Shown here piece by piece: positions 16,016 through 64,000 of a stretch of 64,000 bases of DNA (the stretch's first letter is position 1; every line of letters starts with the position of its first letter). The position numbers and the translations under genes are program-made. The notes beneath the pieces are model-generated. The model was not told the origin of the DNA, made no database searches, and saw only the letters and a program-made list of their open reading frames with translations. The stretch comes from Armatimonadetes bacterium DC (lineage in GTDB: Bacteria; Armatimonadota; Fimbriimonadia; Fimbriimonadales; GBS-DC), in assembly GCA_001442985.1 (NCBI GenBank), contig LDYB01000023.1:124001-188000 (forward strand). The letters are read 5' to 3'.

Positions 16016-16960
16016 ATGCGTCCCTTACGATGGTGGATGCTCTGGTTGGCGCTGGGGGTCGCGGCGCTGGCAGTTATCGCATGGATGATGCATTTCGCCA
16101 GCCAGAACAGAATCTATCGGTACACCTTCCCCGACGGCAGTTATGTGCGCATTCTCAGACTGGATTACGCCAAGCAGAGCCGCTTCGTGCGCTGGCGGTT
16201 CGACAAGACTTTCCCCTTTATCCACCGCGATATGCATGAAACCCCGCTTTCGTTTCAACCGCGGTATATCCTCTGGGCGGAGTGCGCATTCGGAGACTAC
16301 CCTCCCCAAGGGTGGGTGCGCGACTCGCACGGGTGTGAGTATCCTGTAACGAGCCAGCCTTTGAGTCTCTCCAGTTTTTACTGTGAGGAGCTTTATAACC
16401 TGCCTACCGACGGGCAGAAGGTAACGCTCCAGCTGCGCCCCAGTTACGAACAGCCTCCCGGGCTGGAATACCCCGTGCAGTGTGTTAAGGAGCCAGTAGC
16501 CTACCCTGCGCCCGAGCGTCTACCCATTACCCGAGAGCAAGGTGGCGTGCGCTTGACCTTGCGTTCCATACGCTGGAAAGGAGTACTCCAGAAGTGGTAC
16601 AGGCAAAATCACAAGGCGTCCGAAGAGCCGACCCTATACTGGCAGTTTATTGTCAAACCCGATTTACAAGTAGCGCCTAAAACCTGGAAAGTCGTCGGGA
16701 TGGGGGTGATGACGCTGTATAACCGCTCGCCAGATCGCCCTGCAAACGGTATGGAAGTGGCTCTTCTACAGGACTGCTGGCGGCAACCGGTCTACCGGCT
16801 CTATGTGGTAGTGCAGGAACTAACCACGCGTCGTCGCGAGGTTTTTGAGTTTCTGATTCCACCGCCTCCAGCAGAGCAAATCGAGCATCCTGAGGAACAT
16901 ATATTGTATTACACTGGCAGTCCGCTAATTCCGCCTCGGGGTTTCGTCTACTTTCCCTAA
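16016..16960 (+). CDS. Single-pass membrane-anchored protein of unknown function
   Basis: A 314-residue protein starting MRPLRWWMLWLALGVAALAV, one N-terminal membrane helix, then a soluble domain predicted outside the cytoplasm. I do not recognise the family. It is rich in Tyr, Trp and Pro, with a Cys pair in the first third and a proline-rich stretch (IPPPPAEQ) near the end. ATG 16016 is chosen because TATAAT ends 6 bp before it and the longer frame starts inside the neighbouring divergent gene. It stands alone, followed directly by repeat copy B. Confidence 0.65.
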   Translation: MRPLRWWMLWLALGVAALAVIAWMMHFASQNRIYRYTFPDGSYVRILRLDYAKQSRFVRWRFDKTFPFIHRDMHETPLSFQPRYILWAECAFGDYPPQGWVRDSHGCEYPVTSQPLSLSSFYCEELYNLPTDGQKVTLQLRPSYEQPPGLEYPVQCVKEPVAYPAPERLPITREQGGVRLTLRSIRWKGVLQKWYRQNHKASEEPTLYWQFIVKPDLQVAPKTWKVVGMGVMTLYNRSPDRPANGMEVALLQDCWRQPVYRLYVVVQELTTRRREVFEFLIPPPPAEQIEHPEEHILYYTGSPLIPPRGFVYFP

Positions 16961-17290
16961 GAGGCTGTCCAGGAATTTCGCGTTTGAATTCAGACGGGTG
17001 AACCCATTCGTATGAAACGAAGTCAGCCTCCGCTGACTATAGCCCCCTGTTTACGAGGGTTGGGGGGCTGAGCCGACGCAGGTCGGCTTCGTCTCATAGG
17101 AACGGCTTCAGCCGTCAGGGCACAGGTTCCAAGACGGCACGCCTGTCAAAAAGCCTCCCCCTAAGACCTGAAGGAGGGAGTCTCGGAACGCTCACGCCCC
17201 ATCCTTGCAACAGAGCAGCTGAAGCCGTCTGGCGCAAACGCAATGCGATCCCGTTGCTTACTCGCTTTCCTGAAGCGCCCCTGAAAACCC
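16961..17290. repeat. Modular palindromic intergenic repeat, copy B
   Basis: The 357-bp gap after the gene ending at 16960 is almost all repeat. The left end GAGGCTGTCCAGGAATTTCG matches the left terminal repeat of copy C at 63220. Blocks CAGACGGGTGAACCC, AGCCCCCTGTTTACG and GAGCCGACGCAGGTCGGCTT are shared with copy C; the block from CAGGGCACAGGTTCCA to CATCCTTGCAACAGA is shared with copy A. The right end (TTTCCTGAAGCGCCCC) is a decayed version of the terminal repeat. No gene is seen inside. Confidence 0.8.
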
Positions 17291-59030: not shown

Positions 59031-61985
59031 CTACGGCAACGCCACTGCGACCTCCAGACCGCCATATGCCTGCACCTGCTGGGAGCGCATGCGCCATTCG
59101 GTCTCCCCAAAACGCCCCCTGCCCCACACCAGCGCGACCCAGCCCCCCGGCAGGGCACGCGACTCGCCTGCGGGAATCGTCATCGCGAGGGGAACCCACA
59201 GGTCAGGGTGCTGGCGCCCCTGCTCGTCTTTGAAGAAGGAGCAACGCCACGCCAGCGGGTTCAGTGGGATGGCTCCGTAAAAGCGGTTCGCGGCGCGGTC
59301 TTCCCACACGCCTGCGTTCAGGTAGTAGTTCGGCACGCCGCCTGCCTCGTCGTCAGCGTCGCTGCCGCCCAGCAGGCTCAGAGGGTAGTGGTAGATGCCT
59401 CTCACCTCCATCGGCTGCTTACCCCGGTTCTGGAGCGTGAAATAGCGCACGAGCATCAAGCCGTTCACCAGCATAAATTCCCACTCAACGGCGAAGGGAA
59501 TATCCGGCGCATCGGGTTCGGGCTGGTGAAAGAGCCAGCCGCGCCCATACTCGATATCTTCAACCTGAACAAAACCGAGTGCGTGCTGGTTGGGCGCGAG
59601 CCAGCGGTTCTCGCTGCGCACCTGCCAGAGCACCACCGTGTAGCGTCCATACGGCTCGCCCTGCCAGCGCAGTTCGCCAATCGGCGCACGCTCGGCACTG
59701 AAACGCAACTGCAGGGGCAGGTGTTGGGAGCCTATCTGCGCGTCGGGCGCCAGCCGATAGTACTGCTGGGGGCGCGCCGTGCGTGGACGCTCCGCCGCAA
59801 AACTCAGCGTATACTCCCGCTGTTCGCCCGGTCTGAGGTTCTGCAGATAGACCCACGCACGCTCGCGATACAACGGCTCCACTGTGAATCGCACGGGCTT
59901 GCCCTCGCGCGTGCGACAGGCGAAAGCGCCCTTCCAGCGCGAGGCAGGGTTGTTCGGCGGCAAATCCACACACACCCAGCCTGTGAACGCCTGCTCGCCG
60001 CGATTGCGTACAACAAACGGCAGGCGCATCGAGTCGGCGCCTATCTGGGCTTTCGCCGTTAGCACAGGGCGCGTCTCCGTCGGCTGGGGACTGCGCTCCC
60101 AGAAGCGTCGGGAAGCCGCGTGAATCTCATACGCACGGCGGTGAACCTCTGTTGCGGTGGCAACCAGTTCCCTGTAGGGTACACCCTGCTCGTTGACCAG
60201 CCCATAGTTGCTATCTTCAGGGAAGGTGCGGCTGACGCCCTGCGCAGGCTCATCCACCCACATAAAGAAGTTGGAGCCGACCACGAAGGGCAGCGACAGG
60301 GCGGTCTCCTGAAAGATTCGGAAGCATCGGGCACGCTGGGATTGGGTATCTACCCGCATGCCTGCGCCATGCTTGCAAGGTAGCCCGCTGTCCAGCGCAG
60401 GGAAGCTCCACTCGGTTATCATCAGCGGGCGTTTGCTTTCTTTGTGCCACTGGCGCAGGCGCTCCTCCCAGTCCAGCACGCGCCCCTGACGGAGGTCTAT
60501 GCGCGGGTAGGTATTGACGCTGATCACATCGCAGTATTCGCCTGCGATATCCCAGAGAGGCGGGGCATCGCCTGCGAAGCGGCAGCCCAGAATCAAATGG
60601 TTCGGGTCGTGTTTGCGGATGGCGCGGGTGGCAGTTTCAAAATAGCGTCGCGCCGCCAGCCGCACGAAGGCGATTCCGTCCTGCTGGGCGCGTGGGGTGC
60701 GGATAGCAGGTGGGGTATCGCTCTCCGCAATCTCCCGAAAGTCGCGCAGGTTCGCCTCCCAAGCGCGATTGAAAGCCGCGATATCTCCCTTGTAGCGCTG
60801 GCGGAGCAGGTCAGCAAGCGCGACTCGCGCCGTGTGCCCCGCAGGACGACGCAACGCCTCCACCGCCAGCCCCCACGGCAGGTAATCTTTGCCGAACCAT
60901 TCCAGCTCGTTATCCAGCATGTAGCCCAGCAGCCACGGATCGTCGCGGTTGGGGCGACAGCGCTCGTAGGCAATCCAATCGCACCACGACTCCCATTCGG
61001 GCGAAAACACATTCGGGAAACCCGTCCAGTGGACGGGTTTCACCAGGTCGTCATGATACGCGAAGCCCTGCCCCATGCCCAGAATCTGCTCGGGGTGGGG
61101 CAGTCCTTTGTGGCGCAGGTAGACGGAATGGTTGACTCCCAGCGCGGTGAAGCCCCATGCTTTGAGCCGTTGCAGGGTCTCTTCCGCCCAGCGCGCTTCG
61201 GAGCCGTGCCGGCGCTCCATATTGCGGTGATAGGGCGCGTAGCCCAGCGCTTCGCACCAGTGGACGAAGTAGCTGGCGTGGTCAGTGCCCAGCGCGAGAA
61301 ACAGGTTGCCGCTGGGGTCTATGAACCACCAGACGCCCTCCACCTGTTCCACGCGGAAAAAGCCTGTGGCACGCTGGCGGGCAGGCTTAACACGGGCGCG
61401 CACAGGCGGCGGTTTAAGTATCACCCCAGAGGGCGTGAAGGGCTTCATGCGCTCGATGCGGGCATCGCGAATTGTTGCCTGAAAGCCGTTCACCACGATG
61501 CCCATCTCGCCCCAGTAGATGCCCTCTCGGAACCGCCACCCCCCTCGCCAGCAGAGCGTGTCGCCTTCCCACACTTCGCCCACAATCTTCTGGTTGTCCC
61601 ACTCGATTCGGAGGCGGTAGGGGGTTTCGTAGTTCCACTGCCAGCCTTCGCGCGTGTAGGCGAGGCTTTCGTCGGGCACGACGCCTTCCTGCGAGAGCCA
61701 CTGCCCGCCATACATCTGTTGCAGTTCCACGAAGTGGCGTCGGTCGGCATCGTCGGGCGCTTCCACGAGGTTCAGGCGCCAGTGATTACGCTCGTTGCGC
61801 CAGAGGGTCAGCCCTGCAGTCTTCCACTGACTGGTGGTCGCGCGATGCAGGGTGAACACTGCGGAGAACGCGCCCGCCTCCGAAGAGGAATCACGCCATA
61901 GGAGCGGCGCTCCAATCCCCCGCACGGCAATACTGCCATCGGGCTGCTCCCGATAACCGAACGGGAGTCTTTTCCACGGTTGCAT
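59031..61985 (-). CDS. Large clan GH-A glycoside hydrolase (agarase/beta-galactosidase-like)
   Basis: A 984-residue enzyme without signal peptide. The first ~200 residues form a beta-sandwich binding domain. A (beta/alpha)8 barrel follows, with the acid/base in LGYMLDNELEWFG (E360) and the nucleophile in PLMITEWSFPALDSG (E525), the two glutamates of clan GH-A. About 330 further residues are beta-sandwich. The barrel resembles GH50/GH86 agarases and GH42-like enzymes, but I cannot fix the family. Start ATG 61985 has only a weak ribosome binding site. Confidence 0.78.
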   Translation of the reverse strand: MQPWKRLPFGYREQPDGSIAVRGIGAPLLWRDSSSEAGAFSAVFTLHRATTSQWKTAGLTLWRNERNHWRLNLVEAPDDADRRHFVELQQMYGGQWLSQEGVVPDESLAYTREGWQWNYETPYRLRIEWDNQKIVGEVWEGDTLCWRGGWRFREGIYWGEMGIVVNGFQATIRDARIERMKPFTPSGVILKPPPVRARVKPARQRATGFFRVEQVEGVWWFIDPSGNLFLALGTDHASYFVHWCEALGYAPYHRNMERRHGSEARWAEETLQRLKAWGFTALGVNHSVYLRHKGLPHPEQILGMGQGFAYHDDLVKPVHWTGFPNVFSPEWESWCDWIAYERCRPNRDDPWLLGYMLDNELEWFGKDYLPWGLAVEALRRPAGHTARVALADLLRQRYKGDIAAFNRAWEANLRDFREIAESDTPPAIRTPRAQQDGIAFVRLAARRYFETATRAIRKHDPNHLILGCRFAGDAPPLWDIAGEYCDVISVNTYPRIDLRQGRVLDWEERLRQWHKESKRPLMITEWSFPALDSGLPCKHGAGMRVDTQSQRARCFRIFQETALSLPFVVGSNFFMWVDEPAQGVSRTFPEDSNYGLVNEQGVPYRELVATATEVHRRAYEIHAASRRFWERSPQPTETRPVLTAKAQIGADSMRLPFVVRNRGEQAFTGWVCVDLPPNNPASRWKGAFACRTREGKPVRFTVEPLYRERAWVYLQNLRPGEQREYTLSFAAERPRTARPQQYYRLAPDAQIGSQHLPLQLRFSAERAPIGELRWQGEPYGRYTVVLWQVRSENRWLAPNQHALGFVQVEDIEYGRGWLFHQPEPDAPDIPFAVEWEFMLVNGLMLVRYFTLQNRGKQPMEVRGIYHYPLSLLGGSDADDEAGGVPNYYLNAGVWEDRAANRFYGAIPLNPLAWRCSFFKDEQGRQHPDLWVPLAMTIPAGESRALPGGWVALVWGRGRFGETEWRMRSQQVQAYGGLEVAVALP

Positions 61986-62187: not shown

Positions 62188-63153
62188 TCAGCACCCCTGC
62201 CCGAACTGGAATAGAACGGTCAGCAGGTCAGCGTCATCTACAATCCCGTCGCAGTTGGTGTCTTCCGCCAGTCCAGAGCCAGTGTTGCCGAAGGCGAACA
62301 GCACTGCCAGCAGGTCGGCGTCATCCACGCAGCCGTTGCCGTCCACATCGGCGGAGGTCACGATAGCGTCCGCTTCAGTCGCTGCGCCCCTCACCTTCAT
62401 GTAGAACGAGGCGCGCGGATTACCATTGAACCAGTAGTAACCCGCTCCGTAAGAGCCGTTGCATCTCGTGTCGCCTTCCCAGTAGAAGGTGTCGCCCTCA
62501 TAGCCGGGTCCTGAAGCAAGCCACCAGCCAGGTCCGCCGCCCTCATACAGGGGAGCGCAATACTGCGGGAACTTGACGCCTATCCAGAAGCGATCGTACT
62601 GGTTGCCGTCGGTACCTGTGAACTCGAAAGTCGACACAGAGTGGGGGGCGCAGCGTGGGAAAGTCAGGCTGACGACATAAGTTCCTGGGTCGAGATTACC
62701 CAGCGAGATGTCCTCTACTGCCAGCATTACGCCTGTGTCAACACCGCCAGAAGCGTCTGAGGGCGCCAGATAGAGCGAGATAACCACCGGCTGCTGTGCC
62801 GTAGCGGGCACATAGAACGAGACATCTACCTGAGTGATAAAGTAGGTGTTGTCTCCATCCGTGTCGAGGCTGTTGGGGATGTTCGCGTCGTCAAAGGTGA
62901 TGTTGGATACTGGGAAGTAATAGCCTGCGTAGGTCGTGTTGTCGACGAGGGTTGTCGGCGCGGCAGGGAAGAAATCGCCCCCGTTCGGAGCAGAACCGCC
63001 GAATGGGGCAGGCAACAGGGAGACTGGCACTGCAGGCACCGGTAAGCCATGAACCGGTCGTACCCGAATCTGAGGCGCGAGTTCAGCCTGCGCGTATGCG
63101 CTTAGTAAGGTCGCACCCATCACTGCTGTAAGCCATCCTATCCTGTTCATCAT
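62188..63153 (-). CDS. Secreted protein with dockerin-like tail
   Basis: A 321-residue protein: signal peptide (WLTAVMGATLLSAYAQA), a beta-sandwich body with several aromatic loops (YWEGDTRCNGSYGAGYYWF), and two calcium loops at the end, DVDGNGCVDDADLLAVLFAF and DTNCDGIVDDADLLTVLFQF, closing with FGQGC. Same tail as at 13666-15108 and at the left edge. AAGGAGCG precedes ATG 63153. A short hairpin overlaps its stop codon (62172-62202). Confidence 0.86.
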   Translation of the reverse strand: MMNRIGWLTAVMGATLLSAYAQAELAPQIRVRPVHGLPVPAVPVSLLPAPFGGSAPNGGDFFPAAPTTLVDNTTYAGYYFPVSNITFDDANIPNSLDTDGDNTYFITQVDVSFYVPATAQQPVVISLYLAPSDASGGVDTGVMLAVEDISLGNLDPGTYVVSLTFPRCAPHSVSTFEFTGTDGNQYDRFWIGVKFPQYCAPLYEGGGPGWWLASGPGYEGDTFYWEGDTRCNGSYGAGYYWFNGNPRASFYMKVRGAATEADAIVTSADVDGNGCVDDADLLAVLFAFGNTGSGLAEDTNCDGIVDDADLLTVLFQFGQGC

Positions 63154-63219: not shown

Positions 63220-63429
63220 GAGACTGTCTCGGAATTTCGCGTTTGAATCCAGACGGGTGAACCCGTTCCTATCAAACAAAGCCAGCCTCCGCTGGCTATA
63301 GCCCCCTGTTTACGGGGATTGGGGGGCTGAGCCGACGCAGGTCGGCTTCGTCTCATGGGAACGGAACCTCAGCCGTCTGGCGTCAGCGCGGTGCAATTCT
63401 GTTGCTTGCTCGCTTTCCGAGACAGCCTC
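63220..63429. mobile_element. MITE-like element, repeat copy C
   Basis: A 210-bp non-coding element with 15-bp terminal inverted repeats, GAGACTGTCTCGGAA (63220-63234) and TTCCGAGACAGCCTC (63415-63429), one mismatch. It has an internal palindrome GCCGACGCAGGTCGGC and the blocks shared with copies A and B. The left flank ends TTAG and the right starts TTGG, so no clear target duplication is seen. The terminal sequence resembles insertion-sequence ends of the GGCTGTC type; no transposase is in the window. Confidence 0.75.
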
Positions 63430-63585
63430 TTGGACCCCTTTTTTGGCTCTGGAACCACTCTGCTCGCATGTGTGGACTTGCGCAGGAACGGGATTGGATA
63501 CGAGATTAACCCGGAGATTGCTCTCGAGGCTGTGCGCCGACTGCGAAGCTATCAGGTCCCCCTCATAGAAAACTCTGGAGGTTAG
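63430..63585 (+). pseudogene. Truncated DNA methyltransferase (C-terminal fragment)
   Basis: Right after the repeat the frame reads LDPFFGSGTTLLACVDLRRN, then GIGYEINPEIALEAVRRLRS, and ends at 63585. This is SAM-binding motif I (DPFxGSGTT) and the following helix of an N4/N6 DNA methyltransferase, with only ~25 residues after it. The catalytic DPPY-type motif and all upstream sequence are missing, and only 66 bp separate the repeat from the next gene. So the enzyme is dead. The break falls exactly at the repeat boundary. Confidence 0.75.
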
Positions 63586-63590
63586 AACTC

Positions 63591-63818
63591 ATGGCACGCT
63601 CATGGGAGAGTGTTCGCCAGAAAATTTCCCTGACACAAGGACTACTTCAAGAGGTCGGTCTCAGCTTAGAGGCAATCATTGGAAGAATCTGTCGTGTAGA
63701 GATGCACTGGCCCTTCGGAGGCAAGCCTGCTATCAGGCTTAACCTCAACCTGTTAAGGGTGCAATTCCTCCCCATTAGAGAGTTCCCCAAAGGCTTGCCC
63801 TTCGTGGAATCCACTTAA
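63591..63818 (+). CDS. Small ORF after the methyltransferase remnant
   Basis: A 75-residue ORF starting MARSWESVRQKISLTQGLLQ, with GGAGG upstream and only 5 bp after the methyltransferase stop. I do not recognise it. Its place suggests the start of a partner restriction enzyme, now truncated; the abrupt C-terminus (FPKGLPFVEST) would fit. It may also be an intact small protein. Confidence 0.4.
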   Translation: MARSWESVRQKISLTQGLLQEVGLSLEAIIGRICRVEMHWPFGGKPAIRLNLNLLRVQFLPIREFPKGLPFVEST

Positions 63819-63853: not shown

Positions 63854-64000
63854 ATGGCGATAACGGCGTATGAATGGTCTGGACGCTTGCGTCCCTATCG
63901 GTGGCGCGTGCGCATGTTGCTGGCGTGGAAGCTGGGGGCGATCGGGGGGACGGCAGGTGCGCTCACCTCGGCGCTACTGAGCCTTCTCGACTGGCGCGCT
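63854..64000 (+). CDS. N-terminus of a membrane protein (3' end outside window)
   Basis: 49 codons are visible from ATG 63854. A basic stretch (RLRPYRWRVRMLLAWK) is followed by a hydrophobic segment (LGAIGGTAGALTSALLSLL), probably the first membrane helix. TATACT at 63822-63827 is a likely -10. Family cannot be told. Confidence 0.6.
   Translation, partial: MAITAYEWSGRLRPYRWRVRMLLAWKLGAIGGTAGALTSALLSLLDWRA

Follow-up and report, generated by a model that had tools for sequence, protein, structure and literature searches.

Analysis of a 64,000-nucleotide stretch of the genome of Armatimonadetes bacterium DC (contig LDYB01000023.1; hereafter the window) suggests that a probable restriction-modification locus near its right end was broken by a rearrangement at the edge of a short repeat, through either adjacent deletion or recombination between repeat copies, and that the neighboring endonuclease-like gene was separately gutted by an internal deletion. 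We assign this reading a probability of roughly three in four. The event is of a known kind, a defence locus wrecked in an ordinary way where a repeat marks the breakpoint, and it changes no concept; its value is as a clear case in which a non-autonomous repeat lies precisely where a restriction-modification locus has lost gene sequence, in a methyltransferase-rich lineage.

The first component of the locus is what is left of the 3' end of a DNA methyltransferase gene of class N4/N6 (63430..63585, forward strand). It comprises the final ~51 codons, beginning with motif I (LDPFFGSGTT) and running to the stop codon. These 51 codons match profile positions 187-219 of 221 in the Pfam N6_N4_Mtase family (PF01555; E = 1.4e-9), contain the FxGxG signature of motif I, and align to three intact homologs. 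Compared with Type II N4/N6 methyltransferases with an N-terminal HTH (PF01555 plus PF12728), the remnant gives a gap-free alignment with the C-terminal ~50 residues of complete proteins but, unlike them, has lost ~86% of the protein (~312 of 362 residues), including the recognition region and catalytic motif IV, which reads SPPY in intact homologs. The absence of motif IV and of the recognition region indicates that this piece is a remnant and not a functional member of the group. Nucleotide identity to the corresponding gene of a relative, G004, is 89/120 after 63430 and 11/36 before it, and homology therefore begins exactly at the right end of the repeat. These results bear out the first-pass annotation, which had described a MITE-like element ending at 63429, methyltransferase coding from 63430 with motif I at its start, and the loss of all the preceding protein. 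As that annotation had suggested, we also looked for the lost 5' part beside another copy of the repeat. When residues 1-315 of the protein from G004 were used to search all contigs of the genome, it was not recovered; the best match was a complete 433-aa paralog with 40% identity on another contig (C20), and the remaining matches were weaker paralogs. Matches to motif-I-type methyltransferases occur at 21 places in this 2.85-Mb genome (G000; E up to 1), which marks the lineage as rich in methyltransferases.

The second component lies 5 bp downstream and is also open. This ORF (63591..63818, forward strand) encodes 75 amino acids, and the comparison with restriction enzymes that had been proposed for it identified it as a restriction-endonuclease-like remnant. 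Over residues 28-74, it shares 70% identity with the C-terminal end of an ORF of 270 aa in another genome (G162). In a two-piece alignment, residues 1-31 correspond to residues 4-34 of this homolog (12/31 identical; score 67, versus at most 36 in shuffles) and residues 31-75 to residues 214-258 (33/45 identical); none of 2000 shuffles reached either score. Since its two ends align to the same 270-aa gene, one after the other, the ORF represents a single gene with ~179 codons (~540 bp) deleted in frame, and on the same ground the possibility that it is an unrelated or a complete small gene was ruled out. This two-piece structure is new relative to the first-pass annotation. In G162, the 270-aa gene comes after the C-terminal end of a protein resembling a methyltransferase, which over 57 aa has 35% identity to another methyltransferase of the window genome. 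This position and a candidate PD...D stretch suggest that the 270-aa protein may be a restriction endonuclease. The intact homolog gave no match in Pfam, NCBIfam, PADLOC, PHROGs or PDB, and no relatives were found in the named genomes, viral contigs, phages and plasmids that were searched.

Comparison with 291 genomes of the phylum identified an intact counterpart of the locus. The best relative of the remnant was found in G004, a genome of the same family in one contig, with 76% identity; this nearest relative belongs to a different genus, with protein identity of 73-76%. Its methyltransferase is a complete protein of 362 aa with an HTH and a methylase domain, whose nearest solved structure is 2zie (E = 3e-41). 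The locus is anchored by a conserved downstream neighbor gene, the start of which lies in the window (63854..64000, forward strand); it encodes a 612-aa protein with a coiled coil, and 15 of the 18 genomes of the family have it. The intact methyltransferase of G004 is located directly upstream of the ortholog of this gene (67.6% identity over 621 aa), and because it adjoins the same conserved neighbor we consider the locus orthologous, shared inheritance being a simpler reading than independent insertion at the same place. The repeat search gave no match near the intact locus in G004. Neither an identical fragment without the repeat, among the relatives searched, nor the 5' half elsewhere in the genome was found, these being the two observations that the first-pass annotation had named as speaking against its account.

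In a further genome, G008, an asparaginase-family gene is followed by 120 bp and then by the same neighbor gene, with no methyltransferase between them, which indicates that the methyltransferase gene was gained upstream of this neighbor, being intact in G004 and beheaded in the window genome. The asparaginase-family gene adjoins the methyltransferase in G004; in the window genome it is found on another contig (C20), beside other genes, indicating that this side of the locus has lost its gene order and that the repeat lies at the point of disruption. What now lies to the left of the repeat is unrelated, lineage-specific DNA. It includes a gene for a secreted protein with a dockerin/EF-hand-like C-terminus (62188..63153, reverse strand), which is not beside this locus in any relative examined, and a glycoside-hydrolase-like gene (59031-61985) with only ~35% relatives within the family. 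Left-flank genes were sought near this locus in the relatives as a sign of translocation, and no counterpart was found; since the flank has no syntenic counterpart, neither a reciprocal junction nor the partner copy of a recombination can be named.

The repeat itself (63220..63429, forward strand) is 210 bp long, has no coding capacity of its own, and carries the ends GAGACTGTCTCGGAA ... TTCCGAGACAGCCTC. Its left (63220..63234, forward strand) and right (63415..63429, reverse strand) terminal inverted repeats (GAGRCTGTCTCGGAA) are 15 nt long and 93% complementary. The trinucleotide just before the left end is TAG and that just after the right end is TTG; TAG is not duplicated, so that the window copy itself lacks a target-site duplication. 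Between the ends lies a palindromic core (63262..63378, forward strand), and the repeat as a whole is largely a nested palindrome: the single-strand fold of the 221-nt stretch has an energy of -58.5 kcal/mol versus -34.1 in shuffles (z = -7.5), a value reached by 0/200 shuffles. Against Rfam, these palindromic hairpins gave nothing but sub-threshold resemblances to CRISPR repeats, which were dismissed as chance.

The end motif, which defines what we call TIR family A, is present at ~24 places in the 2.85-Mb genome when at most one mismatch is allowed (0 places for the reversed-pattern control), and parts of the whole repeat matched at 58 places, indicating that the repeat is real and well above chance. 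The copies have distinct ends, GAGACTGTCTCGGAATTTCGCGTTTGAATCCAGACGGGTGAACC on the left and, read inward, GAGGCTGTCTCGGAAAGCGAGCAAGCAACAGAATTGCACCGCG on the right, and the most similar copies are up to 95% identical. In most copies the trinucleotide outside the ends is TNA. The same trinucleotide is found on both sides at C25:110842 (TCA), C16:215089 (TTA) and C20:178674 (TGA) and in the relative G004 (L247; TGA), and the flanking trinucleotides differ in the full copies at C16:340116 (TCA/TCG), C25:117924 (TAA/TTG) and C9:49475 (CTG/TTA). A second copy within the window (16958-17270; C23:140961) has a family A left end at 16961 with TAA outside and a degenerate right end with TGA outside. The family thus has the features of a MITE, namely terminal inverted repeats, short length, no transposase, multiple copies and, in four copies, a target-site duplication. 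As the two flanking trinucleotides still agree in only 4 of the ~9 full copies that were examined, the missing duplication at the window copy is weak evidence on its own.

In IS5-type elements of the IS427 and IS1031 groups, the terminal repeats start with GAG and the target duplication is a 3-bp TNA. The window repeat is similar to IS5-type MITEs in being short and without a transposase, with 15-nt ends that start with GAG, TNA at the ends and many copies. An IS-like element of ~880 bp in the same genome (L238:1430-2310) encodes a DDE_Tnp_1 transposase between ends that also start with GAG (GAGCGTATACGGGAA), with TCA on both sides. The likeness to the IS5-type group lies in the GAG-start ends and TNA, and a cognate DDE transposase was not found: within the one transposase family searched, none of the four DDE_Tnp_1 loci of the genome has family A ends, and for this reason we take the label no further than "MITE-like."

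Taking these observations together, we propose the following sequence of events. A restriction-modification locus, consisting of the methyltransferase gene followed by the endonuclease-like gene, would formerly have been located directly upstream of the 612-aa gene. A repeat of TIR family A would have been present in, or would have entered, the methyltransferase gene immediately ahead of the codons for motif I. An adjacent deletion, or recombination with another copy, ending at the left edge of the repeat may then have taken away the first ~310 codons together with all that lay beyond them. The same rearrangement would have joined the repeat to the unrelated DNA upstream of the secreted-protein gene, and the endonuclease-like gene was probably lost separately, by in-frame internal deletion, leaving a scar from which no activity would be expected. 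The data show directly that the repeat forms a family, where the junction lies, that an orthologous locus is intact in a relative, that the 5' part is absent and that a second deletion took place; we infer both the order of these events and the route of the rearrangement. The TAG/TTG flanks fit loss at the repeat edge; they are no proof of it, because matching trinucleotides survive at only about half of the full copies. It is well known that IS copies without target duplications mark deletions. In PMC11708052, decay, recombination between copies and adjacent deletion are named as causes of such missing duplications, and the cases reported include a deletion involving IS5. The window is similar to those cases in having a mobile element at the exact edge of lost DNA without matching target duplications, and differs from them in that the element is non-autonomous and the event historical rather than observed. 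With regard to the first-pass annotation, which had proposed insertion with flanking deletion or recombination between repeat copies, loss at the repeat edge, by either of these routes, is the account that fits best.

A later arrival of the repeat is the best of the alternatives, although a distinctly improbable one. Under this explanation the repeat inserted at the edge of a gene that had been truncated beforehand, or whose 5' part had gone in an unrelated deletion, with a target duplication that has since mutated. TAG and TTG are both TNG, one base apart, and the exact duplication is missing at several other copies as well, including that at C16:340116 (TCA/TCG), so decay is common. However, coding homology begins at the first base after the repeat, and insertion exactly at an old breakpoint would be a coincidence; moreover, the 66 bases to the left of the repeat contain no methyltransferase coding.

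Somewhat less probable still is a misjoin of the assembly across near-identical copies of the repeat, with the 5' part of the gene in the few per cent of the genome that is unassembled. The assembly consists of 26 contigs and is 95.45% complete, and repeat copies reach 95% identity. Against this, the repeat is only 210 bp long and the outer ends of the window copy are unique enough for ordinary read pairs to bridge it, the 5' part is on no contig, and the independent deletion of the neighboring endonuclease-like gene means that the decay of the locus is real either way. Finally, it is very improbable that the two small ORFs are functional proteins made from remnants, or that the longest ORF at the junction, a fusion of the repeat and the methyltransferase (63355..63585, forward strand; 76 aa) whose in-frame ATG at 63355 is supplied by the repeat, gives a functional product: both remnants are open, in frame and closely spaced, but the fusion has no catalytic (S/D/N)PP(Y/F) motif and no target-recognition region, the 75-aa ORF is without the middle part that holds the candidate PD...D catalytic residues, and neither form is present in any other of the 291 phylum genomes.

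The first-pass annotation had described a restriction-modification locus as destroyed, and this agrees with the adjacent methyltransferase and endonuclease-like remnants, both broken, as in other decayed loci of this kind; what goes beyond such loci is only the repeat at the edge and an endonuclease-like family without a database match. The part of the claim that is less secure is the pairing itself. The usual partner of this methyltransferase family in other genomes, found after intact homologs (L073, L074, L133-L136), is a conserved protein of ~360 aa (SSDIKSRTYLEYRKDMKRKAIAELE...) that differs from the 270-aa one, so either the pairing in the window is unusual or the two remnants derive from different systems. 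The ~360-aa protein gave no match in Pfam, NCBIfam or PADLOC; it probably serves as the cognate endonuclease and would belong to an undescribed family that occurs across bacteria and in Archaeoglobus. More tentatively, it is possible that the 270-aa protein represents an undescribed and publicly rare endonuclease family, paired in this lineage with a methyltransferase that usually has another partner, and that breakpoints elsewhere in this genome are also marked by members of the repeat family. The analysis yields two useful by-products: the 270-aa gene, which may stand for a new family of endonucleases, and the ~360-aa protein as a second, unnamed partner of this methyltransferase family.

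The palindromic core of the repeat is not restricted to TIR family A, as it is also present in copies with other, or without recognizable, terminal repeats. The same core is found between terminal repeats of a second type, GAGGGTGTTCGAAAAATC (G000 L008, L014, L021 and L030, near the centre), so that one core appears to be common to two MITE types. Ends of this second type bound a DDE_Tnp_1 transposase locus (L239:998-2739), which may be the parent of that type. In addition, many copies (G000 L004, L010, L003 and L028) carry an extra module, CTGCTCTGTTGCAAAGATACCTTCTGGAACCCACGATGCCCCCGAAAGAGC, between the left end and the core; these repeats are modular mosaics, with palindromes within palindromes.
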